DNA of 29,734 nucleotides from a virus: IMG/VR virus record IMGVR_UViG_3300044681_000028, positions 1 through 29,734 of that record, one strand, 5' to 3'. Both the position numbers and the translations under genes were made by a program. Positions 2,749 to 29,734 of the stretch are shown piece by piece. The notes under the pieces were generated by a model. The model was not told the DNA's origin, did no database searches, and saw only the letters and a program-made list of their open reading frames with translations. How positions within the stretch are numbered: the stretch's first letter is position 1; the number at the start of each line of letters is the position of its first letter.

Positions 2749-2755
2749 GATTAGA

Positions 2756-3754: not shown

Positions 3755-3775
3755 TTTGGTATAATGTTTTTTGGT

Positions 3776-4357: not shown

Positions 4358-4372
4358 GCGTTGTTTTTTTAG

Positions 4373-4400: not shown

Positions 4401-4405
4401 CTTGG

Positions 4406-13013: not shown

Positions 13014-13021
13014 CTCAATCA

Positions 13022-13049
13022 TAAATAGCGAATTTACACTTTTGTGTCT
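13022..13049 (-). promoter_or_regulatory. Candidate phage late promoter (copy D)
   Basis: Minus strand: AGACACAA, 8 nt, ATTCGC TATTTA, the last A being shared with an ATG at 13022. It lies downstream of the large terminase and would head the tail operon. The first box is the AGACAC variant also seen in copy C. Confidence 0.55.
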
Positions 13050-13139
13050 GAGCATAAAAAAAGCCAGTTGGCACTTGGCACAAGTGGCATTAGTGGCATT
13101 TCGCAAATCTCTTTGTGCCATAAATGCCATAAATGCCAT
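13050..13139. repeat. Array of TGGCA half-sites, direct then inverted
   Basis: This gap between the terminase stop and the next gene holds TGGCA at 13069, 13076, 13085 and 13094 on the plus strand (steps 7, 9, 9), followed by TGCCA at 13116, 13125 and 13134 (steps 9, 9). CACTTG-gca-CAAGTG at about 13073-13087 is a perfect inverted repeat. A run of seven T on the minus strand follows. It could be a packaging (pac) or protein-binding site; nothing in the sequence decides this. Confidence 0.5.
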
Positions 13140-14324
13140 CTACCGTATTGTGTACTTTCCAGCGTTCGCCTTCAGCTTCTCCATTGCCACGTAGCGGAGC
13201 GCATCGAGTGCGTGGTTGTTGTCATCTTCGGGTTGGTTCGTTACTTGGTTGGTCTTGTAGTCCCGTTTCCATGCGTAGTTCCTCAGTTCTCGGATGATGT
13301 TAACCGAGTCTTGGTGTACCATTATTTGAACGCTCTTTAGCTTATCGATGCCTGACCTTACGCTGTCCTGACCTTTGGCAACTGGTCGGATTCTGAAGCC
13401 AGCCCTTCGGATTTCTTCGATGCTCTTGGGCTCTGCTGAATCGGCTATGATTTCGTCCGACCTTTGTAGCCCGCACTTCCTTGCAATGTCTGCGTTCGTT
13501 AACCCTGTTTCGTAAAGCACTTCACGAACCCATAATTTACCTTCTTGATAGAGTACCTCCACGAGTGCAGTCGGGTCGTTCGTAAACCCGAAGTCGAGTC
13601 CGTATGCTTTCCACTTGTACCCGGTCGGAAACTCTTTGGTTTCTTGCCAGTTCTCGTATATCGCGCCTTCTCTTCTTGACCTTTGCCCAAGTCCGTAAAC
13701 CTTCCACTTGTATTCGTCAGCCGTGCCTCGTGATACGTTAAAAGGTGTCGGCTCGTAGCTGTTTATCTTGTCGCGGATGTGCTGGTCGAGGAAGGTGTTG
13801 TCCAGCATCGTGGAATGTATAAGCACCACATCATCCCGTTTCAGAACGTTGTCGTATATCCAATGCTCGTCTGTGGAAGGGTTGTAGTCGAGAATCCACT
13901 TGCCTTTGCATCGCTGCTCTAATTGGTCGAAATCATCCTTGCTTGTTTCAATGGCTTCATTCAACCAAAAGTAATCTGTTTCGATACCGTGAAGCTTCTG
14001 AGAATCGTCAAGCCCGTAGAACTCAAACGTAGACCCGTGAGCAGAGTAAATTAAATCAGTCTTGTTAAACGCCTCATCCTCCCAAACCTCAAGGCTCTGG
14101 AGTACTTTCTTGAACGTGTCGAGTACCGTTGGTTTAATCCACGTCCTCCTAAACCTCGCAATTGCGATTCTCTTCGGTTCTTGTAATCCTGTAAGGTAGA
14201 TGGCTTGACAGATGCTCCACGTTTTCGAGGAACGGCTTCCACCCTCAAGCACAATTCCCCGAATGGATTTATCATTAAGGGCTTGCCACAGGTCATCAAA
14301 TACGCCAGTTCCTTCAATTTTCAC
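13140..14324 (-). CDS. Terminase large subunit
   Basis: The packaging motor and nuclease, 394 aa. The ATPase half shows a Walker A variant GGSRSSKT (28-35) and Walker B YFWLNE (118-123). The RNase H-like nuclease half shows acidic residues in YGLDFG (D244), IIADSAEPKS (D295) and DDNNHALDALRY (368-374). It belongs to the PBSX/Terminase_3 type. Start is GTG at 14324, overlapping the stop of the preceding small gene (GTGA). The circular assembly with no defined end fits a headful packaging enzyme. It follows the small terminase candidate with one small gene between. Confidence 0.95.
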   Translation of the reverse strand: MKIEGTGVFDDLWQALNDKSIRGIVLEGGSRSSKTWSICQAIYLTGLQEPKRIAIARFRRTWIKPTVLDTFKKVLQSLEVWEDEAFNKTDLIYSAHGSTFEFYGLDDSQKLHGIETDYFWLNEAIETSKDDFDQLEQRCKGKWILDYNPSTDEHWIYDNVLKRDDVVLIHSTMLDNTFLDQHIRDKINSYEPTPFNVSRGTADEYKWKVYGLGQRSRREGAIYENWQETKEFPTGYKWKAYGLDFGFTNDPTALVEVLYQEGKLWVREVLYETGLTNADIARKCGLQRSDEIIADSAEPKSIEEIRRAGFRIRPVAKGQDSVRSGIDKLKSVQIMVHQDSVNIIRELRNYAWKRDYKTNQVTNQPEDDNNHALDALRYVAMEKLKANAGKYTIR

Positions 14325-14506
14325 GTAAGGTTATTGGTTGACTTTTTGGTAGGTTTCGTCAGTCTTTGACCTGACTGCTTATTAGCTTCTGACATGAACA
14401 CCGTCACCTTCTGCGTTGGGCAGCTCATCTTGTGATAACCGCAACCTCCGCAGTATTCACATTTGATGTTGACGTTACCGTTCTTGATGTTCGTTGCTTT
14501 CTTCAC
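14321..14506 (-). CDS. Small zinc-finger-like protein between the terminase genes
   Basis: A 61-aa protein. A CxxCGGCGxxxxxC pattern (CEYCGGCGYHKMSC) around residues 16-29 suggests one metal site. The N- and C-termini are basic, with Lys/Thr/Asn-rich tails, so nucleic acid binding is possible. The GTG start at 14506 overlaps the preceding TGA, and the stop overlaps the terminase GTG, so translation is likely coupled. No family was recognised. Confidence 0.65.
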   Translation of the reverse strand: MKKATNIKNGNVNIKCEYCGGCGYHKMSCPTQKVTVFMSEANKQSGQRLTKPTKKSTNNLT

Positions 14507-14904
14507 TTCTTCTCAGGTCGATGTATTACTATCTCTACCTTGTCAGGCTTGCCTCCGTTAACCGTCTGCTCAACCTCTTCTTTCGGCTTGCCGTAGACCC
14601 TATCGAACAGAACGTCCAATATGTGGATGCTTCCTTTCTCGTAGTCTCGTTGGGCTTTCTTCGCAATAAGAGCAATCCAAAACGGCAACTGGTCGTTCTT
14701 TGCCAACTCCACCAACTCGCTTCTTGACTTGCCGAGTACGTTCTTGATGATGTCCTGAACCTGACCCTTCGACAGCTTGACATTATGCTCATCAAGGAAG
14801 TGTTCCTTTAGTAGCGTTTCCACGTTTTTCGGTCTCCCTTTCGGGTTGCCGCTCTGTCCTTTCTTGAAGGGTTTTAGGTTCTCAGGTGTTCCGCCTTCGT
14901 TCAT
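14503..14904 (-). CDS. Terminase small subunit candidate (DUF5681-like)
   Basis: A 133-aa protein. The N-terminal motif FKKGQSGNPKGRPK is the signature of a family found immediately before large terminase genes, assigned as a DNA-recognising small subunit. Residues 25-130 are helical with a basic middle. The ATG at 14904 overlaps the stop of the methyltransferase gene. Its position one small gene upstream of the large subunit supports the assignment. Confidence 0.75.
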   Translation of the reverse strand: MNEGGTPENLKPFKKGQSGNPKGRPKNVETLLKEHFLDEHNVKLSKGQVQDIIKNVLGKSRSELVELAKNDQLPFWIALIAKKAQRDYEKGSIHILDVLFDRVYGKPKEEVEQTVNGGKPDKVEIVIHRPEKK

Positions 14905-16388
14905 TGTTCAATCGCTGTTTTAACGTACTCTTTTCCGTTTATCTTAACGCTCAAAGTCGGGTCGAGTTTCGTCATTCTGTCGATAATTACTTGGCAGTAT
15001 TTAGGGTCAAGTTCCATGCCATAGCATTTGCGTTTCAGTTGATGGGCGGCTACCATTGTTGAGCCTGAGCCTAAGAAGAAGTCTACCGTTAAGCCATCTT
15101 CGGGACAACTGCTTTTAATTGCCCGTTCGCATAGTGGTATGGGCTTTGGTGTTGCGTGTCCTCCTTCAGTTCCGTTTTTAACGTGTCGGCTAAAATGCCA
15201 AACGTTATTCATATTGTCGTGCGTGTTGTCAAAGTACGCTCGGGTTGAATAGTATTCTTTTTTTAACGCATCGTATTCTTTTTTTAACGCATCGTATTCT
15301 TTGTGAAACGCATCGCCCTTTGCTTCGTTTCTCATTGAATTATAGTGCTCTCGTGTTGGAAAATGCCACTGACTTGTTGTAAAGTAATGCGAAGCAGATG
15401 TTTTTCCTGTAATTTCTATAACCTTCTTGACGTTCCACCCAAGCTTATTTTTTTGCGTATTTAAATATTCTCTTATTGGTTCAAACCCTTCAAAATAATT
15501 GTGTGAATTATTGTTAAAACCTTGAACCCCGAGCATAATAAAAAGGCATTTTTCATCAGCCGTTGCGTAACTTCTTGTATTGTCTGAATTTTGGCTTTGC
15601 CCGTGTCCCTTGTCCCAAGTTATCAAATTTCTGAATGTTGCTTTTTCGTTCTTTATGTAAGGCTTCAGAACTCCGCTATAAATATCCATCAAAGGTTCAT
15701 CAATACCCCAGCAATACCAACTACCGTTTTCCTTCAAATGAGTAAACTGCAAGGCTATCCACTCTTTATTGAACTCCAGTAAATCCGCATAGTTTAGATT
15801 GTCATTAAGTACCCCCTCGCTTTCTTTTTTCATTCCGTAGGGCGGGTCATTGTGGGCGAGGTCAGCCTTCTCTCCATTCATCAGCTTTGCCACTTGGTCA
15901 GAGTCCGTTGAATCTCCACAAAGCAAACGGTGTTCTCCTATCTCGATAAGGTCGCCAAGAACAACGTCTGTCTTTAGTTCTTCGGGCACTTCGTAATCGT
16001 CCTCTTCTGCTTCCAGTTCTTCTGCTTTCCAATTATCAGGAGTGTCAAGCCCCCACTCGTTCAGTTCTTCAGCATCCCAAGTATTCGCCAGTTCGTCCCA
16101 GTCCCATTCCCCGAATCCTACGTTGTCTTTGATGATGAACTCGCGCTGTTTCTCCTCTGACCAATCAACAACCTCTACGGGTACTTCTGACCATCCAGCT
16201 TCTTGCATTGCCTTGAGCCGCATATTGCCGCCCAAGACTATCATCTCTGTGTTAACGACTATCGGTCTGACGTTAGCCATCTCAGGAAAGTCCCGAAGGC
16301 TCTGAACCAGCTTCTTAAACTTCTCGTCTTTGATGTATCTCGGGTTCTCCGAGTTTGGTCTAACCTTGCTTATTGCTATTGTTTCCAT
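14901..16388 (-). CDS. ParB-like domain fused to N6-adenine/N4-cytosine DNA methyltransferase
   Basis: A 495-aa protein. Residues 1-115 are a ParB/Srx-like domain (IAISKVRPNSENPRYI, GGNMRLKAM at 53-61). The methyltransferase domain follows: motif IV is DPPY (180-183) and motif I is FLGSGSTM (437-444) near the C-terminus, the order of the beta class. Residues 361-377 include a duplicated YDALKKE heptad encoded by 21-bp repeats. This fusion is common near phage terminases and probably protects phage DNA from restriction; the ParB part may target it. ATG at 16388 overlaps the preceding small gene. Confidence 0.9.
   Translation of the reverse strand: METIAISKVRPNSENPRYIKDEKFKKLVQSLRDFPEMANVRPIVVNTEMIVLGGNMRLKAMQEAGWSEVPVEVVDWSEEKQREFIIKDNVGFGEWDWDELANTWDAEELNEWGLDTPDNWKAEELEAEEDDYEVPEELKTDVVLGDLIEIGEHRLLCGDSTDSDQVAKLMNGEKADLAHNDPPYGMKKESEGVLNDNLNYADLLEFNKEWIALQFTHLKENGSWYCWGIDEPLMDIYSGVLKPYIKNEKATFRNLITWDKGHGQSQNSDNTRSYATADEKCLFIMLGVQGFNNNSHNYFEGFEPIREYLNTQKNKLGWNVKKVIEITGKTSASHYFTTSQWHFPTREHYNSMRNEAKGDAFHKEYDALKKEYDALKKEYYSTRAYFDNTHDNMNNVWHFSRHVKNGTEGGHATPKPIPLCERAIKSSCPEDGLTVDFFLGSGSTMVAAHQLKRKCYGMELDPKYCQVIIDRMTKLDPTLSVKINGKEYVKTAIEQ
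15253..15315 (-). repeat. Three 21-bp tandem repeats inside the methyltransferase gene
   Basis: The units 15253-15273 and 15274-15294 are identical (plus strand tattctttttttaacgcatcg); the third, 15295-15315, differs in three bases. They encode the YDALKKE repeat in a probable helical insertion. Each complete unit carries a run of seven T, so the copy number is likely to vary between isolates. Confidence 0.85.
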
Positions 16389-16506
16389 CTAACCTTCGTT
16401 TTATTTCGATTGCGACCCCCGCTTTCTCCGCTTCCTTTTTGGAGTCGTAGATGCAGTCTCCGTTTCCCCACCTCCATTTTCCGTTATCGCATTGTCTTGC
16501 TGGCAT
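16360..16506 (-). CDS. Small overlapping protein, 48 aa
   Basis: Starts at an ATG inside the preceding gene and reads PARQCDNGKWRWGNGDCIYD followed by SKKEAEKAG. The pattern QC-x-NGKWRxGNG-x-C-x-(Y/F)D-(S/T)KK-x-AE resembles small phage proteins I have seen elsewhere, so the frame looks genuine. It overlaps the 124-aa gene by 106 nt in another frame, and the methyltransferase by 29 nt. The function is unknown; two Cys may bind metal or form a bond. Confidence 0.6.
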   Translation of the reverse strand: MPARQCDNGKWRWGNGDCIYDSKKEAEKAGVAIEIKRRLDGNNSNKQG

Positions 16507-16775
16507 TGGTAAAAGTTTAAAAGTGCAACACTCATCAGTTGAGGAGTTCGACCACAAGTGAAACAGACCTTAGCTTTCGGGTCGATGTAACTCCACGCTT
16601 CTTGGTAGAGTTTCTGTTCATCTCGTGTTATCCGTCCCGAATACCGCCCCTGTCCCATCATCGTGATTTGGTCGAGCCTCTCAGCTATAAATAGCAAAAC
16701 TTCGTTTTTGTCCATGCTTAAAATTTCATGCCACCCGTTTTCCTTCAGGTAGTCGGTTATAGTTCGAACCTCCAC
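16401..16775 (-). CDS. Protein with a Cys motif and basic tail, unknown role
   Basis: A 124-aa protein with a helical N-terminal half and the segment KAKVCFTCGRTPQLMSVALL around residues 68-87, then a low-complexity, Lys/Arg-rich tail (PKRKRRKRG). The tail is co-encoded with the 48-aa gene in another frame and may simply be read-through of shared sequence. Start is GTG at 16775, overlapping the preceding gene by 19 nt. A copy of the late promoter element lies inside at 16688-16714, so a shorter product from M34/M35 (about 16676) is conceivable. Function is unknown. Confidence 0.65.
   Translation of the reverse strand: MEVRTITDYLKENGWHEILSMDKNEVLLFIAERLDQITMMGQGRYSGRITRDEQKLYQEAWSYIDPKAKVCFTCGRTPQLMSVALLNFYQCQQDNAITENGGGETETASTTPKRKRRKRGSQSK
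16688..16714 (-). promoter_or_regulatory. Candidate phage late promoter (copy E), within a gene
   Basis: Minus strand: TGGACAA, 8 nt, TTTTGC TATTTA. The TTTTGCTATTTA part is identical to copy A and the spacing is the same, but the first box deviates and the site is in coding sequence, so chance cannot be excluded. It would drive the methyltransferase and terminase genes. Confidence 0.4.
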
Positions 16776-17008
16776 ATCAATCTCTCAAATAACACACTCA
16801 GCAAAGGAACGTAAATAAGAGCCTCAGGGTCGTTGACGCAATAAAGAACCCCGAACCAAAAAGACATACAAAGCCGACAGTCCAACGGTTTAAACGAATA
16901 ACTCTCGTCCATCCCAATCCACTTTTTAATAAGTAGGTCGATTGCCAGTACCTCAATCCAAAGGTAAGCGGCAACGCTCGCGGATAATGCGCTCAAGATG
17001 TATAGCAT
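16757..17008 (-). CDS. Small membrane protein
   Basis: An 83-aa protein with two hydrophobic segments: residues 1-27 (LYILSALSASVAAYLWIEVLAI) and about 48-75, separated by the motif KPLDCRLCMSFWFG. The P-L-x-C-x-x-C-x-S-F-W-x-G pattern recurs in small phage membrane proteins of unknown role. The ATG at 17008 lies 56 nt inside the preceding sigma-like gene. Confidence 0.65.
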   Translation of the reverse strand: MLYILSALSASVAAYLWIEVLAIDLLIKKWIGMDESYSFKPLDCRLCMSFWFGVLYCVNDPEALIYVPLLSVLFERLMWRFEL

Positions 17009-17477
17009 AGTAATTATCTCTTAGTTGTTCAAGTGCTTTGACTACTGTGTTTCCGATTGACTTGTAAGGAATATCGACCTTCTTGCCGACCTTTCGATAG
17101 CTTCCTTCTTCCAGCCACAATTTAAGTACCTCGCGGTCGTACCAATGCAGCTCGTCCATCAGGGTTTCCAAAAGTGCAATGTCGTCCTCTTTCTCCCAGT
17201 CGTAGTCCTCTCGCTCGTGGTCAACCTTCTTGTGATTGTGTAGGTCGTAGAGTTTTGAGAAGCTGGAGCGTTTACTGGTAGCCATTGTCATCATCGTCCG
17301 AACTACGTAGAATCTCAGATAGCCACCTTCGTTTATCTGTTGCCACTTCTCTTCGGGCATCTCCAGCAGAAGAAGAACCACCTCTTGTATAAGGTCATCC
17401 GGGCAATTACATAGCTTCTGAGCGAGTTCGTATAACTCTTGGTCAGATAGTAGGTCGATTGCCGCTTGTTCTTTCAC
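16953..17477 (-). CDS. Sigma-factor-like transcription regulator
   Basis: A 174-aa protein. Residues 20-75 (DDLIQEVVLLLLEM, GGYLRFYVVRTMMTM) resemble sigma region 2. Residues 112-155 (YDREVLKLWLEEGSYRKVGK, KVDIPYKSIGNTVVKALEQL) form a region-4-type helix-turn-helix. An acidic linker lies between them, as in ECF-type factors. The size fits the ECF class. GTG start at 17477. A repeated two-box promoter-like element in this genome makes it the natural candidate for a late sigma factor; that link is inferred. It could also be a terminase-like or other HTH protein with a sigma-related fold. Confidence 0.72.
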   Translation of the reverse strand: MKEQAAIDLLSDQELYELAQKLCNCPDDLIQEVVLLLLEMPEEKWQQINEGGYLRFYVVRTMMTMATSKRSSFSKLYDLHNHKKVDHEREDYDWEKEDDIALLETLMDELHWYDREVLKLWLEEGSYRKVGKKVDIPYKSIGNTVVKALEQLRDNYYAIHLERIIRERCRLPLD

Positions 17478-17487
17478 GGGCTTAAAT

Positions 17488-18039
17488 CTACAAACAATTT
17501 TTCTTATACCAATCTTGCGTAACCCTTATATACAAATCCTCCTCAGTTTTAAATCGGTTCGGCTTCTCTTTCACTACCGCCTTGATAAGATTGTTTTCAA
17601 GTAGGTAGGTGTATGCTAAGTAATACGGAGCAGCAAACGGAAGTTTGCCGTCTCTTTTAATCCATCCAAGTATCAACTCATGCGCTTCTTGCGGAGTGAT
17701 AGGTTTCTTTTTAAACTCAGGCAACTGAATAGGGTTATAACCATGATTCGCTTTGCCTTGCCGCTTGTGTTCCTTGTAAGCCGTCAGCACCTGACCGACC
17801 ACGTTGACAGAAAGGTGTTGTCCAAAGGTGGAAGGGTCTACTCGTTTGCCATCTAAGTACAGTTCTCTTTTGACTGCCATCGTAAACGCTTCTTTTACTT
17901 GCGCCCCCGTGTATCTGTACTCCGAGTTGATGAAGTCCTGAATCATCTTGATCAGACCCATTCCCTGAGGCGAGTTCGGGAAATCTGCGCAGCCTATCAG
18001 CTTAGGCAATTCGGTAATTGTTGTTATCAGGTTGTACAT
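17488..18039 (-). CDS. Conserved protein of the replication block, unknown role
   Basis: A 183-aa protein. It contains INSEYRYTGAQVKEAF and KRVDPSTFGQHLSVNVVGQV around residues 37-85, then a Lys-rich linker and a helical C-terminal half ending IRVTQDWYKKN. The pattern is familiar from Bacteroidota phages next to the initiator-like gene, but I know no assigned function. It may be a helicase loader or replisome accessory factor by position. The ATG at 18039 overlaps the initiator gene by 38 nt. GATC at 17950, one of only three in the window, is in this gene. Confidence 0.7.
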   Translation of the reverse strand: MYNLITTITELPKLIGCADFPNSPQGMGLIKMIQDFINSEYRYTGAQVKEAFTMAVKRELYLDGKRVDPSTFGQHLSVNVVGQVLTAYKEHKRQGKANHGYNPIQLPEFKKKPITPQEAHELILGWIKRDGKLPFAAPYYLAYTYLLENNLIKAVVKEKPNRFKTEEDLYIRVTQDWYKKNCL

Positions 18040-18730
18040 CGAAATTAAATTTAGCGTTGGCGGAATCCTCTCCGTAGAGTGTCTTGTGCGTGTTGTAGTC
18101 GTTTATCATCTGCATGAACTCGCGGGCTTCCTTTTCCTCTTGTGTTTCCAAAGATGATGATTTGTTTTTTAACTCCTCCGAAATCCATTGGTTCAGTTTC
18201 GGCTGCCACTTGTGGATGCGTTGCCCGTTTATCTCCCAGCCTTTGGATTCGTAGTTATCGTGGAATCGCTGGGCAAGGTCTTCAACTGGAAATGATACCG
18301 ATGCAATGCCGCGAGTAAACAAGTTATTACATATCTCCTTTTCGACTTCTTCGCGTGTGGGCGTATTACTTACACTCCCATTAACATTAGCATTAACATT
18401 TACATTATCATTAACACTTACATTAACACTATCAGGTTTTTTGGGTTCTGAAATAACCGACTGGGTTTTTTGGGTTTTCGGTCTACCGCCTTTTGCCCCA
18501 TTCTCTCGTGCCCTTTCCGCCCGTTCCTCGTATTTCACAAGGTCGCGTTTCAAACTCTGCTTGATTGGAATGAAGCACATCTTGGTTATCTTGTCAGGTG
18601 CTTCGGGGTTAAGGTCGTTGACGTATCGAAATAGATGCTTGGCAAGTCTGCCAGCTTCTTCGTCCGTCAATTCCTCAAATGATTCTAACCAGTCGCAATA
18701 AGCTACAAAGGATTTCTTGTCTTTCGCCAT
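18002..18730 (-). CDS. Replication initiator-like protein (DUF6291 / O-like organisation)
   Basis: A 242-aa protein. The N-terminal domain (residues 1-85: KKSFVAYCDWLESFEELTDE, GRLAKHLFRYVNDL, CFIPIKQSLKRDL) resembles DUF6291-type phage proteins, followed by ENGAKGGRPK, a low-complexity linker of alternating Asn and Val (about 110-135), and a C-terminal helical domain with FHDNYESKGWEINGQRIHKW. This arrangement parallels phage replication initiators. The linker is encoded by 12-nt A/T-rich repeats at about 18370-18432 that could be iterons. I chose ATG at 18730; an upstream extension to 18769 has no support. The structured 175-bp leader lies upstream. Confidence 0.7.
   Translation of the reverse strand: MAKDKKSFVAYCDWLESFEELTDEEAGRLAKHLFRYVNDLNPEAPDKITKMCFIPIKQSLKRDLVKYEERAERARENGAKGGRPKTQKTQSVISEPKKPDSVNVSVNDNVNVNANVNGSVSNTPTREEVEKEICNNLFTRGIASVSFPVEDLAQRFHDNYESKGWEINGQRIHKWQPKLNQWISEELKNKSSSLETQEEKEAREFMQMINDYNTHKTLYGEDSANAKFNFDVQPDNNNYRIA
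18366..18432 (-). repeat. Iteron-like A/T-rich repeat inside the initiator gene
   Basis: On the minus strand GTTAATG recurs four times, with variants such as GTAAATG and GCTAATG, in a roughly 12-nt period. It encodes the Asn/Val linker. Repeats within an initiator gene are the arrangement of the lambda origin inside gene O. An origin role here is inference. Confidence 0.5.
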
Positions 18731-18869
18731 GATAAAAAGAAAGGAGGTCGGGTTGACAGCCCGAAACAAAGTGAGCCGACAAGGTAGCTGCGACCTCTGT
18801 TACTTCCTCCTGTGTTTGGTGTGTTTATCATTCCTTGCCATTATCGAACGCTTGTCAGGCGTTCATTAG
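18731..18869 (-). promoter_or_regulatory. Structured leader upstream of the initiator gene
   Basis: The gap holds several pairing segments, given on the plus strand: GAACGC (18846-18851) with GCGTTC (18859-18864); GAGGTCG (18744-18750) with CGACCTC (18791-18797); AGGAGG (18742-18747) with CCTCCT (18806-18811); and a local hairpin TCGGG-ttgacag-CCCGA (18748-18764) that competes with the long pairing. A 13-codon ORF (MARNDKHTKHRRK) runs 18841-18800. This could be a cis-acting regulatory RNA, an attenuator or part of the origin. Confidence 0.45.
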
Positions 18870-18897
18870 TAAGTAGCAAAATTAACAATTTGTGCCA
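18870..18897 (-). promoter_or_regulatory. Candidate promoter (copy F) upstream of the initiator leader
   Basis: Minus strand: TGGCACAA, 8 nt, TTTTGC TACTTA. The same stretch also matches the host consensus (TTTTG-N22-TAATTTTG), so it might be recognised by either polymerase form. It follows the C5 methyltransferase stop (18906) and would start the leader at about 18862. Confidence 0.5.
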
Positions 18898-18905
18898 CTT
18901 GGAAG

Positions 18906-19592
18906 TCAAAATAATTCAGTTTGCTTAACGTCTTTCTTGCGAATTATTCCAAGTGCTGTTTCGAATATGGTTCGCCCAGCTTCGTAGTCTACGAGGTTAC
19001 GGGCTATCTTATCTGTTCTTTGTTCACCTTTATACTTTCTAAAGTCGTAATCGTGAAATTCACACCACACATTAACCTCATCTTTTGCGCCTCCAATTAT
19101 CCCGTTACCTTCCTTTCTTTCATTGATGCTGCTCGGTAAATTGAAGTTCGTCCAGTACAAATGCCTTCCTCGTTTCTTTGCAGGTATCAAAGGCTCATAA
19201 AATGGAATAACATTCTCAACAACATATTGACCTTCAAAGTAGTTATCAAGAAAGATAACCTCCTCATAAAGTTTCATATCAGGATAAACAGCTTTGAACG
19301 TTTCGCGTGACTTTTGACTAATACGCACCCTTGAATGACTCGGACAAGGCGGTGAAGTCCAAATAAAATCAAACTCCTTGTAGTGGTCAAGAAGATACTG
19401 GTGTGCATCTGCCACAACTACCGTATCATTAGGAAACCTTTCTTGGTACAACCTAGCTAACTCAGGGTCTAATTCAACAGCAGTAACTTCCATATCAATA
19501 CCAGCTTCTTCGGCTACCTCATCCCACTTGTATCGGTTGCCGCCTAAACAAGCGTATAGATTTAATACTTTAAACTTCCTCATCTCTTTCAT
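18906..19592 (-). CDS. DNA cytosine-5 methyltransferase (Dcm-type), compact
   Basis: A 228-aa protein. Motif I is LNLYACLGGNRYKW (10-23), motif IV PPCPSHS (81-87) with the catalytic Cys, motif VI ENV (126-128). The target recognition region is short compared with the usual 300-400 aa enzymes. The C-terminus is QTELF, which resembles the beta-sliding-clamp binding motif QLxLF. ATG at 19592 is preferred over a TTG two codons upstream. It would methylate phage DNA, perhaps at replication forks; the recognition sequence is unknown, though GGCC is nearly absent from this genome. Confidence 0.88.
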   Translation of the reverse strand: MKEMRKFKVLNLYACLGGNRYKWDEVAEEAGIDMEVTAVELDPELARLYQERFPNDTVVVADAHQYLLDHYKEFDFIWTSPPCPSHSRVRISQKSRETFKAVYPDMKLYEEVIFLDNYFEGQYVVENVIPFYEPLIPAKKRGRHLYWTNFNLPSSINERKEGNGIIGGAKDEVNVWCEFHDYDFRKYKGEQRTDKIARNLVDYEAGRTIFETALGIIRKKDVKQTELF

Positions 19593-19615
19593 ATCCAAAC
19601 ATTAACATCACAAAG

Positions 19616-20059
19616 TCAAGCACTCTCAGCTTCCAGTTCTCCATATTTCGTATGAATTGATTTGACCAGTTTGTCATTGCATTGCAACGCCCACTTCATC
19701 GTCTTGATTGAATAAAGAACAGTTGAGTGGTCGCGGGAAAACATCTTGCCAATATCTGATAAAGAGTAGCCGCTTCCGTATAACTCCCGATGCACCATGT
19801 AGATAGCATACTGCCGAGCAATGGTTACATTCCTGAGTCGCGCTGGTGATTTCATGGCTGAATAGCCGATTCCAGTAGCTTGTTCTACACGGTGAATGAT
19901 GTCCTTCGCGCTCTTGTCGATGTGCTTTTCACAGTAGACTCCTTGAATTGCTGCCAGTAGCGTTTGGCAATCCTCGCCGAAGTAGCCTTGATGTAGGTCT
20001 ATTATCTTCACAAGCTGCTCCTTGTGGTCTTTCGTTAGTCTTATCACTTGCATCTCCAT
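19616..20059 (-). CDS. Stand-alone DnaA domain IV-like DNA-binding protein
   Basis: A 147-aa protein. The C-terminal half is the DnaA box-binding domain: LRNVTIARQYAIYMVHREL, GYSLSDIGKMFSRDHSTVLY (RDHSTV at 109-114) and SIKTMKWAL. No AAA+ ATPase domain is present; residues 1-60 are a different helical segment. Chromosomal DnaA uses this domain to bind TTATCCACA boxes. A phage version could bring the host replisome to the phage origin or regulate it. It overlaps the preceding gene by 16 nt. Confidence 0.88.
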   Translation of the reverse strand: MEMQVIRLTKDHKEQLVKIIDLHQGYFGEDCQTLLAAIQGVYCEKHIDKSAKDIIHRVEQATGIGYSAMKSPARLRNVTIARQYAIYMVHRELYGSGYSLSDIGKMFSRDHSTVLYSIKTMKWALQCNDKLVKSIHTKYGELEAESA

Positions 20060-21903: not shown

Positions 21904-22174
21904 CGTCTACGGTTACGGCTTTGGCAGTTACCTCCGCTTTCAACTTCGGCTCGTAGGTGTCAACGCTTGCGTAGAGTTTGCCTTGTGCTGACTGCTTGAC
22001 CTGAAGACGAACCTCAAGACCGTGCTTGCCTTCTTTAAGGTACTGGTCGTTCTGCTCCAGCCACTTGATTAGCTTGGTCGGGTTGATAACCATGTCAGCT
22101 TTGACCCACTCAGGAGCGTTTGTCGATGGTGTGTAGATGTTCAAGCCATCCACAAAAATCACTTTGTTTTCCAT
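21884..22174 (-). CDS. Single-stranded DNA-binding-like protein
   Basis: A 96-aa protein, beta-rich with alternating residues (KVIFVDGLNIYTP, KHGLEVRLQVKQSAQGKLYA), compatible with an OB-fold. It ends DDDDLPF, an acidic hydrophobic tail like the SSB C-terminal tip (DDDIPF) that recruits replication and repair proteins. It lies between the exonuclease and NinG. The SSB role is well supported by the tail and context, though the fold is shorter than cellular SSB. Confidence 0.75.
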   Translation of the reverse strand: MENKVIFVDGLNIYTPSTNAPEWVKADMVINPTKLIKWLEQNDQYLKEGKHGLEVRLQVKQSAQGKLYASVDTYEPKLKAEVTAKAVTVDDDDLPF

Positions 22175-22809
22175 TATTTGATGTTTAAAAGGTTACGAAG
22201 ATAATCATTTGCAAACGCTAAACGTTCGCGGAGTTGTTCTTGCATCTCAATGTCTGCTTCTACTCTGATTTCAATCAATTTGAAGCGTTCATCTTGAATG
22301 CGTGGGTCGAAGCTAATAAACCGACAAGCTAACGCCCCAGTTGCCAGCATTTGACCTTGCATCTGCCAAATGTACTTAGGGTCAATGTAACCCTCGAAAG
22401 CTGTCTTGAGATGGTTCGTAGTGTTGTACGGGCATTTGATTTCGATGAGTTCTCCGTCTACCATTCCGTCCGGGCTTGCACCTGAGTAGTCGTTTATCAA
22501 AGTGAACGGCATCTCTTCAATGGTTACGCCTTTCAACTCTGAGTAGTACGCCTTACATATTGGTTCGTACTCGTTGCCCCAGTCCAATGCCTTGCCGAAG
22601 ATTTCGGTTCGTTGCCCGGTCAGTAATTCCGCAGCTTTCTCGTAGATGTAACTGATAGCGGTCTGTCCAAACACTTCGTCTTTCTTGCGTCCGTTGGTCA
22701 TCAAGTCGCCAAAGCGGGAAGCCGTAAACTTCCCTAACCTTTGCGCGTACCATTCCTCTGAGCGTTGCTGAGTTTCGCTTATTGCTTCATAGATTCCTTG
22801 CTCTTCCAT
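22174..22809 (-). CDS. YqaJ-like viral recombinase exonuclease
   Basis: A 211-aa protein with the YqaJ/lambda exonuclease signature: RSEEWYAQRLGKFTASRFG (16-34), GNEYEP (78-83), SPDGMVDG (112-119) and LIEIKCP (121-127) contributing the metal-binding D and E-x-K. It degrades one strand of double-stranded ends for annealing recombination. The ATG at 22809 directly follows the stop of the annealing-protein gene (TAAGATG), so I prefer it to the in-frame codons at 22830 and 22854. Partner genes flank it. Confidence 0.92.
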   Translation of the reverse strand: MEEQGIYEAISETQQRSEEWYAQRLGKFTASRFGDLMTNGRKKDEVFGQTAISYIYEKAAELLTGQRTEIFGKALDWGNEYEPICKAYYSELKGVTIEEMPFTLINDYSGASPDGMVDGELIEIKCPYNTTNHLKTAFEGYIDPKYIWQMQGQMLATGALACRFISFDPRIQDERFKLIEIRVEADIEMQEQLRERLAFANDYLRNLLNIK

Positions 22810-22810
22810 C

Positions 22811-23212
22811 TTACGCTCGTTTAAAGTCATCAGATTCATCTTCACCAAATACACCGACCTCGTAAAGTCCTGACAGTTTCAGAACTACTCTTGATAGTGC
22901 GCGCTTCTCCGCCATCGCTACTGGGTAGGTTTGGCGCGTGTTAGCTGGTGCCGACTCTCCGAATGTTTCCATTTGAACGGGTAGACCGTTGCCGTTGGAC
23001 ATTTCCCCGATGGCTTTGATAACTACGAACTTGCAGTCGTCTGTCAGGTGTACCATTTCATACCTAACTCGGATGCCCTTGTGCGCTTGGATGCGCTCAA
23101 TGCCTTGTCGGGTGATTATTACGAACCCTTGTGGTGATTTAAAAAAGTGGTCTTTGTTTAGACCGTTCTCGGTTGCGAGGTGTTGTAACCTCTCTTTCTG
23201 TGTTTGATTCAT
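22811..23212 (-). CDS. Putative single-strand annealing protein
   Basis: A 133-aa protein with VIITRQGIERIQAHKGIRVR, and the segment QTYPVAMAEKRALSRVVLKL followed by GVFGEDES. The A-E-K-R-A-x-x-R-x-x-L-K-x-x-G-L pattern occurs in ERF/Rad52-like annealing proteins, and its placement directly upstream of a YqaJ exonuclease strongly suggests an SSAP partner. It is shorter than the usual ERF proteins (about 200 aa), so other recombination accessory roles cannot be excluded. Confidence 0.68.
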   Translation of the reverse strand: MNQTQKERLQHLATENGLNKDHFFKSPQGFVIITRQGIERIQAHKGIRVRYEMVHLTDDCKFVVIKAIGEMSNGNGLPVQMETFGESAPANTRQTYPVAMAEKRALSRVVLKLSGLYEVGVFGEDESDDFKRA

Positions 23213-24834: not shown

Positions 24835-25040
24835 CTGTGCTGTGCCATTATTCGTTCGCGGTAAAACTTCGGGTCTATTTCGTTTATCTTCTTTGCCAGT
24901 TCCATCCATTGCCGTTTAGCTTCCGCTCGTTCTTCGGTCGTGGAGTCTGTGCCTAAGTTAGCTTGAATGGTTGCGTTCTGCTGGAGTAGTTCGTCTATCT
25001 GTGCGCGAACTTCAGCATCTTGATAATAGTAGTAGTTCAT
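24831..25040 (-). CDS. Small helical protein of the lysis/exonuclease operon
   Basis: A 69-aa protein, predicted helical: YYQDAEVRAQIDELLQQNAT, then STTEERAEAKRQWMELAKKI. No motif recognised. It overlaps the spanin-like gene start (ATGA) and the exonuclease (ATGA). Confidence 0.62.
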   Translation of the reverse strand: MNYYYYQDAEVRAQIDELLQQNATIQANLGTDSTTEERAEAKRQWMELAKKINEIDPKFYRERIMAQHR

Positions 25041-25687
25041 CTACTTATTATGTTTCGACCAATGCCAACACCGATAAAGTGTTGACCATTGAAGCCGTAG
25101 TTTGCGCTAAGATAGGTCTTTTTAATTGTACCATGCAAACCAACCCCGAACATCGGCTTGGTGTTTTGGATGAAATCGGTCTGAACTCCGACCAACCCAT
25201 GAAGTCCAACGCTGAACTTCTGCTCTTTCCTTTTGTATTGTACGGTCAGTCTCTCGGTTCTGTTCTGATAATTTGACCAAGTTAGGCGGACATCGTTTAC
25301 AGTCGTGTCGTAATTAGCCACCTCAGCCAGCCATGTTTGAACTATACTAACTGTATCTATCAATAACAATGTATCTAAACGAGTAACTACTTTTTCAGAA
25401 TAGATAGTATCATAACGAGTAACGAGTTCTCTACGGACAAACCTTACCGTATCAACCTTCCATCTGTCAACGTATTGGATTTGAGGAACTGGCTTCTCAA
25501 TGGTTACGGTTTCAATTTTACCGCTTCCGCACCCTTGCCAAGCCACAAGAACGCCAAGCAAGAACGCCAAAATGTAAGGTGTGTAGACCTTAGCTAAATG
25601 TATCGTGACGTCCCTGTCCACAGTTCGATTTCTGCTTCTCGCCTTCTTACTAAACCGTTCAGAACCTTGCCGCCTCCTTTGTTCCAT
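25037..25687 (-). CDS. Spanin-like envelope protein with beta-rich C-terminus
   Basis: A 216-aa protein: basic N-terminus, one transmembrane helix near residues 36-50 (YILAFLLGVLVAW) followed by QGCGSG, a stretch with repeated DT and RLDT elements, and a C-terminal part with GLHGLVGVQTDFIQ and FIGVGIGRNI, strand-like and outer-membrane-like. Cys52 does not sit in a canonical lipobox. Position after the endolysin favours a Rz-like or envelope-bridging role. ATG at 25687 overlaps lysozyme by 94 nt out of frame; no clean alternative start is visible nearer the TM helix. Confidence 0.6.
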   Translation of the reverse strand: MEQRRRQGSERFSKKARSRNRTVDRDVTIHLAKVYTPYILAFLLGVLVAWQGCGSGKIETVTIEKPVPQIQYVDRWKVDTVRFVRRELVTRYDTIYSEKVVTRLDTLLLIDTVSIVQTWLAEVANYDTTVNDVRLTWSNYQNRTERLTVQYKRKEQKFSVGLHGLVGVQTDFIQNTKPMFGVGLHGTIKKTYLSANYGFNGQHFIGVGIGRNIISR

Positions 25688-26085
25688 CTGCGGAATTGTT
25701 CGGGTATTCTCGGAAACTCAGGGTTTGAATTTAACCAAGCCAGCAGAGTTGAGTTTGAAAAGTTCCCGATGCCCACGTTGTACGTGAATGAAATGAGAGC
25801 AGCCAACTTATGCGCTGGAAGTTTGACCTCCACCACGTTTTTAACTTGCTTCTCAACGCTCTTGATAGTGTCCAGTAGCATCTTCTCCGCTTCCGCATTG
25901 TCAATCTCAGGGTCGTCCATTGTAACCCGTTCGCCGTTCAGGTACATGGTATTTCCGTAGCCGATTGTCGGAATGTTTGCCGGGCACAGATAAGGCTTTG
26001 AAGAGTAGCCCTCAAACTCCTTTATTACCTCTGCGGCTATCTTTGCCGCGCTTGGTCTTGGTGTCTTTTTGGTCGCAGTTTCCAT
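25594..26085 (-). CDS. Endolysin, GH24-type lysozyme
   Basis: A 163-aa protein. The catalytic triad region EFEGYSSKPYLCPANIPTIG matches the E-x8-(D/C)-x5-T arrangement of phage T4/P21 lysozymes with Cys in the middle position (E25, C34, T40). YNVGIGNFSNSTLLAWLN and GLVRRREAEIELW complete the family profile. It would cleave peptidoglycan glycosidic bonds at lysis. No signal peptide; release through the upstream holin-like protein (26125-26352) is likely. ATG at 26085 is preferred over a TTG at 26112. Confidence 0.93.
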   Translation of the reverse strand: METATKKTPRPSAAKIAAEVIKEFEGYSSKPYLCPANIPTIGYGNTMYLNGERVTMDDPEIDNAEAEKMLLDTIKSVEKQVKNVVEVKLPAHKLAALISFTYNVGIGNFSNSTLLAWLNSNPEFPRIPEQFRRWNKGGGKVLNGLVRRREAEIELWTGTSRYI

Positions 26086-26124
26086 CTTTACAATCGCATT
26101 CTCGCGGTGCAATAGCGCACCATT

Positions 26125-26352
26125 TTACATTTTGCAACGGCTGTCTTTCAGTTCGCCCCTCATCTCAACTAACGCTTTGGTGTTCTCGGCTATCACGTCC
26201 GAGAACTTCTCAACGTGCTTATCGTTTGCTATTTGCCATTCCTTGCGCTCATCTCGATGTATGTCGGTTAACTTGTTAAGGTAGTAAACCAACACAGCAA
26301 GGAAGATTCCCGCTATTCCGTACGATGCTAATGCTTCAAGTATTGCATCCAT
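26125..26352 (-). CDS. Holin-like protein
   Basis: A 75-aa protein with one transmembrane segment (AILEALASYGIAGIFLAVLV, 3-22) followed by a charged helix (DIHRDERKEWQIANDKHVEK). The layout fits single-TM XhlA/BhlA-type holins. It sits directly before the endolysin. ATG at 26352 overlaps the preceding stop (TAATG). Confidence 0.75.
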   Translation of the reverse strand: MDAILEALASYGIAGIFLAVLVYYLNKLTDIHRDERKEWQIANDKHVEKFSDVIAENTKALVEMRGELKDSRCKM

Positions 26353-26570
26353 TATAACACTAAGTTGCCTTGTTCGTCAATGTCAGGAACGACACCGTAC
26401 TCAAGCAGTCTTGCAAGCCAAACGGCTTCGTCCGTTGTGGTCTCCCATACGTGAATTGTGTCTGTCCGTTGATTCGGGTCTGTCCATCCATAACCTAATA
26501 CAGATGCTTTGTCTTCACCATCAAAGGTAATCCAATATGTTCTAACTGGTGGGTAATCTATTGTGTTCAT
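26352..26570 (-). CDS. Small protein between adhesin and holin
   Basis: A 72-aa acidic protein with PPVRTYWITFDGEDKASVLG and EAVWLARLLEYGVVP. No recognised family. The A-rich leader (AAAAATTAAGAAAC) at 26571-26582 has no Shine-Dalgarno sequence. Confidence 0.6.
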   Translation of the reverse strand: MNTIDYPPVRTYWITFDGEDKASVLGYGWTDPNQRTDTIHVWETTTDEAVWLARLLEYGVVPDIDEQGNLVL

Positions 26571-26582
26571 GTTTCTTAATTT

Positions 26583-27632
26583 TTAAACGGCTCCTCCGTC
26601 TGTTATTGTCCAACCAAATGTTGAAATAAGTGATGCTCTTGCCGCATCTGCCGCTCCACCGCCAGTATATGTGCTGGTCCAGAAACTAACAGTTGGTGAA
26701 TATGGGTAACCTACTCCACCTGGATACGCTGCCTGTAAAGAGGCTTCCCACGCTATAAGTGTGGCGTCATAATTAGCTGTTGATAATGTGCCGCCTAGGA
26801 ACATAAAGTTCCCAGCGTCAGTAATCTTTGAAACATCCCAACCGTCAAGAGCCTGATTAAAGGCTGTGGCATAGGACAGCATGCCATTTATATTCGTTAG
26901 GGCTGTGGTAGCCCATCCTCCGATGTTCTGATTAAACGAGGCGGCTTGGCTAAACATTCCACTCATGTTTGTAACACTTGAAACGCCCCAATTGTCCAAG
27001 GGTTGATTGAATGCCGATGCTGATCTGAACATCCCTGCATTTATGCCTCCCATTAAGGTAACATTGGAGACATCCCAGTTGTTTATACTGTCGCTTCCCC
27101 CGTTGTTAAATATGGAACATAGGTAAAACATAAGTTGCATGTTAGTCACCGCGCTAACATCCCAATGGCCTATGTCTGAGTTCATCAAACTGCATGCAGT
27201 GAACATCCTATTCAATGAAGTAGATGTTATGGTTGGTGCATCGGTAGCTGTAATGGTCATGTTCGAGCAACCATCAAAAGCCCTATCGTTAACTACATTG
27301 AATGTACCCCAATTTGAGATATCTGTTATCTTCAATCGATCTCCAGCATAGGCAAATTGCCACCCCTCAATTGTTCCAGAGATAGTAATGGTGTACGTTC
27401 CACTTGATGCGTAAACGTGTGTCCTATTTGCATAACTTAAAGCGTCAGAATTACCATCTCCCCAATCAATCGTGCCTGAGTACGTGCCTCCTGACAATAA
27501 AGGAAGGACTACCGTATTGGAAGCAGAACCTGCCTTTGTCGTATCCCAAGTTGAAACGAAGTCAAGATTGACAGGAGGTGCGCCTCCGCCTCCGCGATAT
27601 GCGGCAACACATATTTGGCTAACGCCTATCAT
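26583..27632 (-). CDS. BspA/DUF285-repeat surface-binding protein, probable receptor-binding or adhesin
   Basis: A 349-aa protein. Residues about 20-110 resemble a PKD/beta-sandwich module (SGTIDWGDGNSDAL, THVYASSGTYTITISG). Residues 115-290 are DUF285/BspA-type repeats of about 25 aa with the recurring pattern W-D-V-S-x-V-T-N-M-x-x-M-F (HWDVSAVTNMQLMF, NWGVSSVTNMSGMF). BspA repeats mediate surface contact in Bacteroidota. It shows a different word composition: two of three GATC, and the only GGCC, lie here. This indicates recent acquisition or exchange. Position between structural and lysis genes fits a tail-decorating binding protein. Confidence 0.85.
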   Translation of the reverse strand: MIGVSQICVAAYRGGGGAPPVNLDFVSTWDTTKAGSASNTVVLPLLSGGTYSGTIDWGDGNSDALSYANRTHVYASSGTYTITISGTIEGWQFAYAGDRLKITDISNWGTFNVVNDRAFDGCSNMTITATDAPTITSTSLNRMFTACSLMNSDIGHWDVSAVTNMQLMFYLCSIFNNGGSDSINNWDVSNVTLMGGINAGMFRSASAFNQPLDNWGVSSVTNMSGMFSQAASFNQNIGGWATTALTNINGMLSYATAFNQALDGWDVSKITDAGNFMFLGGTLSTANYDATLIAWEASLQAAYPGGVGYPYSPTVSFWTSTYTGGGAADAARASLISTFGWTITDGGAV

Positions 27633-27895
27633 TGGTTATAGATTACAACGCTTCCGCTTGACATTGTGATGGCTGTAATAGCATCACCCGAAGGCACTAC
27701 TATGTACGCCCCAGCTTTTAAGGTTGCGCCCGAAAGTCCAAAGGCGGCAAGGCTATCAACTCCATCCACTTCGAAAGTTGTTAATACAGTGTCCTCTTGA
27801 GCGATGAATGCGTAGCCTTTTAAGCCAGTCAATGCTCCAGTTCCTGTAAGGAGTTTGCAGCCGCGTGTTCCAATTAGTTTTTGAGATTCTGTCAT
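27629..27895 (-). CDS. Small structural protein, possible fibre-like or tail protein
   Basis: An 88-aa protein with GTRGCKLLTGTGALTGLKGY, and IVVPSGDAITAITMSSGSVV. Glycine/threonine-rich, beta-prone. The pattern appears in Bacteroidota phages near tail genes. ATG at 27895 overlaps the previous stop (TAATG); its end overlaps the adhesin start, so the two may be translated as partners. Confidence 0.68.
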   Translation of the reverse strand: MTESQKLIGTRGCKLLTGTGALTGLKGYAFIAQEDTVLTTFEVDGVDSLAAFGLSGATLKAGAYIVVPSGDAITAITMSSGSVVIYNQ

Positions 27896-28323
27896 TAGTT
27901 AGGTATTTGGCACTTGTTATAGTCGTATGGTTGTGTGATTGATAAAACGCAAGAATGCCCGCTTACCTTGTCATCGAATCGTTCGGTAAATGGCTCAAGT
28001 GTTACGCTCGTTTGAATGCTTAATTCTGTCGTGTGTAGCTGTCGAAAGTAAGCCACGAAATCAAGTAGCACTTGGATGGTGTCGCTCATTACTTCTTGCT
28101 CGTTTTCCTCTCCGGGAAGAACCCTATCCATTGCCAACAGTCGGATGTTGTAGGTCAATGTTCGCTCAGATAATACAACGCTCTCCTCGATTGCCCACAG
28201 AACTAAATAATCAAGTTCCTTTGGGTTGATTTCCCAAACGTCCCCCTGACCGTACTGCTTCACTTGCAGATGAGCGTTCGCCTGAGTTTCGATTATGGTT
28301 AGTATTTCGTTGAGCGTGTACAT
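27895..28323 (-). CDS. Tail terminator-like protein
   Basis: A 142-aa protein (YTLNEILTIIETQANAHLQV, VWEINPKELDYLVLWAIEES and VMSDTIQVLLDFVAYFRQ). The alternating alpha-beta layout and the position right after the head-tail connector match gpU-like tail terminators of Bacteroidota phages. The assignment is by position and composition; catalysis is not expected. Confidence 0.65.
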   Translation of the reverse strand: MYTLNEILTIIETQANAHLQVKQYGQGDVWEINPKELDYLVLWAIEESVVLSERTLTYNIRLLAMDRVLPGEENEQEVMSDTIQVLLDFVAYFRQLHTTELSIQTSVTLEPFTERFDDKVSGHSCVLSITQPYDYNKCQIPN

Positions 28324-28349
28324 ACTTCTTTAGCTTCGCTTGATTTCTC

Positions 28350-28910
28350 TTACTTGCGTTTGTACTCATATTTGTCCTCTAAGCTGATGAACTTCGGTCT
28401 GCGCCCCAAGAACATTCCTGTCGTGTAGGTTCGTGTATCGGGTTGGATTGTATCAAGACCATCGTCAGGGTTAGCGTAGCTTGGGTAGTCTGTTTCGTTC
28501 TCAAGAAGGAAACGAACGAGCCTCTCGGTGTACCACTCCGCCTTATCCTTGTAACGCTTGGATATGAAGTTGATTTCGTCAAGTGAAGCGTTGGAACTGT
28601 TCTCAGAACTCTGCTGGTGTAGCCCCTTGTTCAGAAACTTGTAGCTTATCGCAGTCGGTGCTTCGCTTTGAACCCAATGAAGTAACGCTGGCTGGATGTA
28701 ATCCTCCAAAAGAGTAGTATTCGCAGCCGTTAACGTGGAGTTGGTTATCTGCGTTTTGAGTTCGTTGTATAAAGTAGTGCCAATCTTGTGCTGGATGTGG
28801 ATGTCTTGGCACATCAACACGACTGGTCGCAAGTACTTGAAGTCGATATTCTCGTGGAGCAAAGTGTTGTCCTTCAAGAATGTTTCCGATATGAATAAGA
28901 CGTTAGCCAT
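28350..28910 (-). CDS. Head-tail connector, DUF6712-like
   Basis: A 186-aa protein. It begins ANVLFISETFLKDNTLLHEN and continues with CQDIHIQHKIGTTLYNELKT, the recognisable opening of the DUF6712 family of Bacteroidota phage neck proteins. Helical throughout, with basic C-terminus (SLEDKYEYKRK). ATG at 28910 overlaps the portal stop (TAATG). It probably docks on the portal as the adaptor of the neck. Confidence 0.85.
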   Translation of the reverse strand: MANVLFISETFLKDNTLLHENIDFKYLRPVVLMCQDIHIQHKIGTTLYNELKTQITNSTLTAANTTLLEDYIQPALLHWVQSEAPTAISYKFLNKGLHQQSSENSSNASLDEINFISKRYKDKAEWYTERLVRFLLENETDYPSYANPDDGLDTIQPDTRTYTTGMFLGRRPKFISLEDKYEYKRK

Positions 28911-29734
28911 TACTTCTTAATTCTCATAAGTTTCTGCTCCCAATAGTGGCGGCAATGGTAGGATTTGCCCCAAAAGCCACCGCCTCGCATCCATACATTT
29001 CTGTTTTGGCTTACTCCGATGTTTTGAATCTCGGTCAACTTCCAACTCTTACCAGCTTCTGTTTCCGTTACGAGTTCGCGGCAGAATTGTCGGGTAGTTG
29101 GAATTATAGCCGCACCACTTGCTTCGGGTCGTTTAGAGTAAACGTAACGAATTACAAACTCCTCTTCGACTGGTGGTATCTCCTCAAGCAACCGTTCGCC
29201 TTCTTTGGTTACTTCCACTACTCGTTGCGTTGAGTCAAGTACATTGTCGACAGCTATCTTAATTGCATTGGCTTCGTTGAGTGCTTGCAGTCCAGCCATT
29301 ACCCTCTCAATTGAAAGTTGTAGCTGCTCGGCTATTGCCAAGAATGGAGTGGATGGATTCTCCTTAAGGATGTTCAGAATAGCCGTATCTAACGGGTCTA
29401 TCTCTGCAAACCAATACTTTCGGTTCAGTTCCTCGTGAAGTCTTGCGGAGGTTTCGCTTTCAAAGTTTAACGCCTTGCCGTTTCCGACTGGTTCGTAGTC
29501 CGTAGAGCCGCAGTTCTTGAAGTACTCAACAAGAATAGCATCCTCGTCTTGCTTCTCAAATACCGCCCGCATCTCTGCCGCCACGTTCTCAGGTATAACC
29601 TCGCCCGTAATAGTAGCCCTTGCAATCTCAGGGCTGAATCCGTACAACTCAACCAATACAGCGATAGCCGAGTTCTCAGCGATAAGACCCTCTTTGACTT
29701 GCTGAAGTAACGTAATGATTCCCGTAACACCACC
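28910..29734 (-). CDS. Phage portal protein, C-terminal part with embedded winged-helix domain and CRH-type end
   Basis: The frame is open to the window end at 29734 and continues into 1-1244 once the 8-bp overlap is removed (total 686 aa). After the conserved VTGIITLLQQVKEG and FSPEIARATITGE, residues about 525-596 of the whole protein read as a winged helix: DPLDTAILNILKENPSTPFL, AIAEQLQLSIERVMAGLQAL, and VTKEGERLLEE. The last 65 residues (TTRQFCRELV, WMRGGGFWGKSYHCRHYWEQ) match the Cys/His ending typical of Bacteroidota phage portal and minor-head proteins. A TTG-started shorter product is not needed. The wHTH may bind packaged DNA or simply be an extra head domain. Confidence 0.9.
   Translation of the reverse strand, partial: GGVTGIITLLQQVKEGLIAENSAIAVLVELYGFSPEIARATITGEVIPENVAAEMRAVFEKQDEDAILVEYFKNCGSTDYEPVGNGKALNFESETSARLHEELNRKYWFAEIDPLDTAILNILKENPSTPFLAIAEQLQLSIERVMAGLQALNEANAIKIAVDNVLDSTQRVVEVTKEGERLLEEIPPVEEEFVIRYVYSKRPEASGAAIIPTTRQFCRELVTETEAGKSWKLTEIQNIGVSQNRNVWMRGGGFWGKSYHCRHYWEQKLMRIKK

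Follow-up and report, generated by a model that had tools for sequence, protein, structure and literature searches.

A DUF285 leucine-rich-repeat adhesin gene as the probable occupant of an exchanged receptor-binding cassette slot in phages of likely Bacteroidota hosts

Background

The exchange of receptor-binding modules between phages is a known phenomenon, but its pace and the exact unit exchanged are usually hard to see. A locus that bears on both is found in a stretch of viral DNA of 29,734 nucleotides (IMG/VR record IMGVR_UViG_3300044681_000028), referred to here as the window, in which GATC, GGCC and CTAG are strongly avoided and most of the few remaining sites lie in one adhesin gene. 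The question raised is whether this gene was imported and, if so, how much of it and from where. The reading favoured here, with good though not full confidence, is that the gene is the present occupant of a receptor-binding cassette slot, that this slot is exchanged among Bacteroidota phages, and that the allele it now holds is a recent replacement.

Genome setting

The adhesin gene (26583..27632, minus strand) is a real open reading frame with an ATG start, encoding a 349-residue protein that matches the Pfam profile of the BspA-like leucine-rich repeat (LRR) family DUF285 (PF03382, E 1.6e-41, 141.2 bits against a curated cut-off of 25). Along the minus strand, the gene order runs from the portal gene (3-1244; PHROG portal E 3.4e-36) through a gene at 28910-29656, a DUF6712 gene (28350..28910; PF20459 E 2.6e-24) and a 142-aa gene (27895..28323), the last two belonging to the structural block, to a conserved 88-aa gene (27629..27895) that overlaps the adhesin start by four bases. 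The adhesin gene is followed by a 72-aa gene (26352..26570), a holin-like 75-aa gene (26125..26352) and a phage lysozyme, or endolysin (25594..26112; PF00959 E 3.8e-40), all on the same strand. The adhesin and 72-aa genes therefore lie where the structural genes of this uncultivated tailed phage give way to its lysis genes. As the portal gene adjoins the homologue of the 28910-29656 gene in 128 of the 129 relative loci that contain both, the record, with its ends in 1-1244 and 28910-29734, is taken to be circularly permuted; it is probably near complete.

The 88-aa and 75-aa genes form the upstream and downstream borders of the slot. The former is 69-100% identical among the best 80 of 119 loci, and its product may be a docking partner of the adhesin; its designation as a nozzle protein, based on a weak sequence match (E 0.11), was set aside. 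The PHROG matches of the 75-aa protein are weak, both to holins (E 0.072) and to a bacteriocin-related family (E 0.013). Neither the 72-aa nor the 88-aa protein matched any record of the phage collection searched. A 216-aa gene (25037-25687) overlaps the lysozyme gene and possibly encodes a spanin-like lysis protein. The phage also encodes a YqaJ-type recombination exonuclease (22174..22854, minus strand; PF09588 E 3.1e-19) and a NinG-type endonuclease, which could serve recombination at the slot. A megablast search with bases 1-20000 found no close relative among named phages, but the terminase large subunit (TerL) is closest to those of Bacteroides phages (37-39% identity), which makes a Bacteroidota host likely.

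Restriction sites and composition

A sequence-only reading of the window had stated that the adhesin gene, which makes up 3.5% of the genome, holds two of its three GATC sites, the only GGCC and a CCTAGG, and the exact count agrees. The GATC sites lie at 27338..27341 and 27022..27025, the GGCC at 27167..27170 and the sole CCTAGG of the window at 26794..26799, with its CTAG at 26795; the third GATC is at position 17950. Hence four of the six GATC, GGCC and CTAG sites are inside the gene (binomial p 2.2e-5), and the probability that any 1,050-bp stretch would hold at least four of the six is 0.0025. Markov estimates for the whole window give three GATC against 102 expected, one GGCC against 59 and two CTAG against 56, while the avoidance of CCGG and CATG is milder. 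When synonymous codons were shuffled within each gene, retaining both the protein and the codon use, the adhesin gene was found to contain four sites against 5.7 expected, and the 34 other window genes tested two against 167.3. The adhesin gene hence looks unpurged. All four of its sites lie 3' of codon 90.

The same reading held that the composition of the gene differs from that of all its neighbours, but beyond the sites this is not borne out. GC content (0.456) and GC3 (0.40) are ordinary for the window, and the departure in codon use (p 0.007) is equalled by a 150-aa gene of the structural region and a methylase gene, and is no stronger than that of the capsid gene (p 0.003). Codon use and GC3 were consequently discarded as marks of foreign origin.

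Alternative cassettes in one slot

Relatives were gathered with several queries, among them the adhesin, the 88-aa gene, the DUF6712 gene and the 216-aa gene; as four of these searches each kept the best 80 matches (of 185, 119, 116 and 598), slot frequencies apply to the set of loci fetched. A complete slot, defined as a near-full 88-aa match plus a holin match, was present in 118 of the 159 loci with an 88-aa match, the window included, and these represent 66 distinct sequences. A DUF285 adhesin is found in 31 of the 66 and a different adhesin in the other 35, and a small partner gene in 64, the remaining two having no partner open reading frame by the rule used. Three of ten non-DUF285 adhesins scanned are LamG-type (Laminin_G_3, E 4.2e-18, 1.9e-10 and 1.1e-14). 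Different adhesin types occur on backbones that share an 88-aa gene 91-99% identical to that of the window, and many of the non-DUF285 adhesins begin with a short start (MPSILTRPS or an MIG-type leader) followed by a glycine run.

The proposal that the gene is a recent arrival consequently stands in part. The allele is new to the lineage, but DUF285 genes in general are not, being present at the same place in 31 of the 66 slots. Neither is the same gene with the same history found throughout the relatives, given the 35 slots with another adhesin. Pfam scans of 30 proteins of the window detected no reverse transcriptase domain, and only short repeats, no long ones, were found in 25000-29734; within that coverage, a diversity-generating retroelement or an inversion was provisionally set aside.

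The restriction-site scar across relatives

For the site statistics, slots with an 88-aa gene less than 65% identical to that of the window were dropped, leaving 61 of 66 slots, of which 51 with site-poor and nine with site-bearing flanks were compared and one intermediate was left out; at the level of clusters, 52 of 57 were kept, and 44 and seven compared, with the intermediate L143 left out. The cut-offs separating site-poor from site-bearing flanks were chosen after a first look at the site counts. Across the 51 slots with site-poor flanks, GATC and GGCC together number 58 against 315 expected within the slot, compared with 41 against 1471 in the flanks; the matched windows on either side hold 4 against 226 (immediately upstream) and 3 against 206 (immediately downstream). 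The 44 site-avoiding clusters (85% clustering, codon shuffle) give 41 sites against 178.0 in the adhesins and 5 against 322.4 in the flanking genes (p 6e-14), the adhesin ratio being above that of the flanks in 21 clusters and below it in three. This recurrence in relatives, surviving both the codon-shuffle and the matched-window controls, upholds the suggestion of import from a source not under the same restriction pressure.

In the seven clusters with site-bearing flanks the pattern is reversed, with adhesins at 11 against 28.8 and flanks at 62 against 81.5 (p 0.033). Import of cassettes from other backgrounds would predict such a change of sign, although the sample is small and includes one exception, L002, whose adhesin has 5 sites against 4.4. 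The density of sites in the upstream flank correlates with that in the downstream flank (rho 0.84) more closely than slot density does with flank density (rho 0.42). The scar is not universal, as many adhesins of site-avoiding phages are free of sites; taken alone, GGCC does not reach significance (sign test p 0.65; 11 higher, 8 lower), and CTAG was rejected as a slot-wide scar because its values across the relatives, 0.29 and 0.28, reveal no effect of the slot.

GATC and GGCC are not avoided by L102, L127, L133, L129, L134, L136, L138, L188 and L191. The presence of such relatives implies that avoidance has been gained or lost within the lineage. In the C5 methylase gene of the window (18906-19598) the Pfam match is confined to positions 1-82 of 324; a similarly short match is found in L168, L321 and L174, and full-length versions in the non-avoiding L134 and L188. 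Methylase content was not retained as the cause of non-avoidance: a full-length C5 methylase in two of seven non-avoiding records and none of seven others, the latter including L321, unclassed by its flanks, is suggestive only, and the records may be fragments. The window also encodes fused ParB-N and N6/N4 methylase domains (14901-16388). Matches to N6/N4 methylases occur in five of the 14 records searched, the window's own counted, and PF02086 matched none of the 14.

Extent of the exchanged piece

Relative to the five closest relatives (L005, L011, L010, L003 and L004), synonymous divergence is 0.36-0.74, where measured, in the upstream 142-aa, DUF6712 and 88-aa genes, and hence unsaturated, against 0.97-2.38 in the first 110 codons of the adhesin and saturation in its core, where amino acid identity is 34-54% and dN 0.45-0.73. 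Downstream of the adhesin the picture is less uniform (holin 0.54-1.65). This excess of synonymous divergence over the flanks indicates replacement of the adhesin. Nucleotide matches entering from upstream stop at many different points up to approximately codon 143 and pick up again at about codon 283, with no long match to the relatives within the DUF285 solenoid. The distribution of sites is similarly uneven: over 20 DUF285 clusters (codon shuffle), codons 1-90 are no richer in sites than the backbone, with none against 18.2 expected, whereas the core has 11 against 37.3, the last 60 codons 4 against 12.3 and the partner gene 6 against 18.1. The gene as a whole, treated as the imported unit in the sequence-only reading, is therefore not quite the right one: approximately codons 90-349, together with 26352-26570, appear foreign, while the first 90 codons resemble those of the resident lineage. 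The restriction-site scar is an independent marker of the imported piece, and agrees with both the divergence and the pairing with the partner gene.

The partner gene

The 72-aa gene (model pLDDT 91.4) belongs to one of several partner families, and for each of the 64 slots containing a partner the partner family is matched to that of the adhesin, none crossing from one adhesin type to another. DUF285 alleles are paired with partner family 0 in 30 of 31 cases and family 5 in one, and family 0 is restricted to them; the large second adhesin family has seven partner families of its own; the third, LamG-type, has family 4 in five slots; and there is one singleton. Mantel correlations over the DUF285 alleles relate the last 60 adhesin residues to the partner (rho 0.47) and not to the 88-aa gene (rho 0.01), though part of the former could come from adjacency alone. 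By contrast, residues 1-90 correlate with the 88-aa gene (rho 0.44) and the holin (rho 0.40) more than with the partner (rho 0.24), and the partner shows no correlation with the 88-aa gene (rho 0.00). The partner is conserved, at 83-93% identity in several alleles. That of L002, a member of the group not avoiding GATC and GGCC and the nearest to the window in the first-domain tree, is 93% identical to the window's, while its DUF6712 protein is only 72% identical.

Traces of earlier occupants can also be found. L127 has a non-DUF285 adhesin with its own partner, yet directly before its holin gene it retains the C-terminal 38 residues of that 72-aa protein at 92% identity, and this remnant of an old partner implies replacement within the slot. 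L315 has a 19-residue remnant (74% identical) before the holin gene, and other loci have shorter matches at the same position (E 0.008 to 0.49), which may reflect only upstream signals of the holin gene. Searches of PHROG, of PDB sequences and of folds gave the 72-aa protein no match of known function, its best viral fold match being an uncharacterised marine virus protein (E 3.1e-5). The product is most likely an assembly factor or cap.

Protein architecture

The adhesin model is confident (pLDDT 91.1, pTM 0.84) except for residues 1-20. These form a leader with a glycine run at its end (27573..27632), disordered in the model and common to many DUF285 and non-DUF285 alleles, which may anchor the protein to the virion. 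Residues 24-113 (27294..27563) are modelled as strands of a PKD-like beta-sandwich, the PKD profile itself scoring below its cut-off; residues 114-282 (26787..27293) form the hypervariable DUF285 LRR solenoid, proposed as the part that reads the receptor; and residues 283-349 with the stop codon (26583..26786) form a helix-and-strand C-terminal cap. With VIA-align, LRR proteins ranked first, the best being TpLRR of Treponema (6mlx; Z 13.3, rmsd 4.0, 206 aligned), and variable lymphocyte receptors (VLR) were also matched (Z 10.4). Foldseek alone was weak (best PDB E 0.22) and repeat solenoids easily reach middling Z; model and VIA-align together identify an LRR-type solenoid. Over 115 repeat segments, tryptophan serves as the anchor, the aspartate, serine and threonine positions are nearly fixed, and positions +9, +13, +16 and +10 are very variable.

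Origin of the imported piece

The adhesin matches 109 phage records, all at less than 60% identity, and the highest whole-protein identity among 28 phage proteins aligned is 62%; in viral_contigs the best segments are 50-57% identical among the top matches listed, with no near-identical donor allele there. The best 80 of 566 chromosomal loci, mostly from Flavobacteriaceae but also from archaea and others, are 33-46% identical, mostly from around residue 25. Direct capture of the unit from a surface protein of a host Bacteroidota chromosome, the source favoured by the sequence-only reading, would find some support in the secreted proteins of Flavobacteriaceae, which hold the same sandwich and DUF285 order, often directly after a signal-peptide-like start. 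Those proteins have long extra domains, however, and the phage leader is in none of the best 80 of 566 loci; the nearest proteins among those compared are those of phages, and the first-domain tree groups the adhesin, with support of 96/93, in a set of 42 rows comprising phage sequences only, although the tree has few columns and its bootstrap is unsettled. Direct capture is accordingly quite improbable. The low chromosomal identity and the phage-only placement suggest that the last donor was probably another phage; a host origin of the fold could lie only further back in time. L401:5001-6494 (Flavobacterium rivuli) and L053:6001-7494 (a viral contig) both encode a DUF285 protein whose short leader, MGAILASRMRQR, is a different one, which suggests the same DUF285 body behind another phage anchor.

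Mechanism and alternatives

The favoured reading, exchange of cassettes at the slot, could operate as follows. A flexible leader would carry the beta-sandwich and then the BspA-type LRR solenoid, which most likely touches the cell surface, and the product of the next gene would accompany the adhesin, most likely in assembling or capping it. Homologous recombination between the 88-aa and holin-like genes would swap a whole cassette (DUF285, LamG-type or other) together with its own partner family; alternatively, only the core, C-terminus and partner would be swapped behind the resident first 90 codons. The imported piece would derive from a background avoiding neither GATC nor GGCC, and for that reason would still carry sites purged elsewhere.

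An unlikely alternative is that nothing was imported, the core evolving in place through repeat shuffling and positive selection such that GATC and GGCC arise faster than they are purged. Both the low amino acid identity and high dN of the core and the variability of the four repeat positions are in keeping with this, and the variable part is among those rich in sites. Against it, the conserved partner gene also keeps its sites, adhesins have fewer sites than their flanks where the flanks are site-bearing, and synonymous positions are far more diverged than in the upstream flanks; unrelated folds in one slot and the partner remnant in L127 furthermore point to replacement. It is very improbable that the adhesin acts outside the virion, as a lysogeny or superinfection factor or a protein displayed on the cell. 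Its position beside the lysis genes and the resemblance of its chromosomal relatives to cell-surface proteins would fit such a role, but it also follows the structural genes, with the four-base overlap with the 88-aa gene, and the several adhesin types of the slot share similar leaders and, by eye, lack a signal-peptide-like start.

Exchange at the slot can be extended, tentatively and with considerable doubt, to a pool of LRR cores shared by these phages in a VLR-like layout, in which a fixed leader and sandwich precede a hypervariable solenoid, whose variable positions may share one face, and a partner-matched cap. Cassettes would then flow between sublineages of differing restriction pressure, and leftover sites would serve as a clock dating the swaps and marking their ends.

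Relation to known systems

The gp38 adhesins of the T4 superfamily are modular, their constant and variable parts separated by glycine-rich segments. As generally described, their fold is another one; the window adhesin has a single glycine run close to the leader.

The cassette exchange described here is a real and replicated case of a kind already known. According to PMC10579305, Alteromonas phages A5, V22 and P24 share modules of a tail fibre and a cognate chaperone, and there, as at this slot, a receptor-binding protein (predicted in the present case) and a small downstream gene move together between backbones. The Alteromonas modules consist of fibres with a DUF4376 chaperone, while the window has a BspA-type LRR, LamG or other body with an unnamed 72-aa family, and the likeness carries no claim of homology. 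What is new here is an LRR as the body, the family of partner genes, and a scar of restriction sites by which the exchanged piece can be mapped. For small phages, the BspA-type LRR is proposed as a receptor-reading fold that can be swapped, alongside a family of cognate partner genes.

DUF285/BspA-like open reading frames are tabulated for jumbo phages such as Vibrio phage vB_VhaM_pir03 in PMC7765460; the Pfam family is the same, but the passages on them describe no slot, partner or exchange. The HF1-group haloviruses, according to PMC7230728, avoid GATC and CTAG and have a divergent host-range region near the tail fibre genes; both sites are absent genome-wide, so that this divergent region bears no scar, in contrast to the window. 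A search of largely open-access literature found no published account naming this cassette, and passages in PMC12750041 and PMC4841201 contain nothing relevant to it.

Elsewhere in the window, a capsid-like protein (2756-3754, weak SU10_MCP match) is 66-70% identical where the portal is 97-99% identical, among the relatives listed, and this locus may be a second one subject to exchange.
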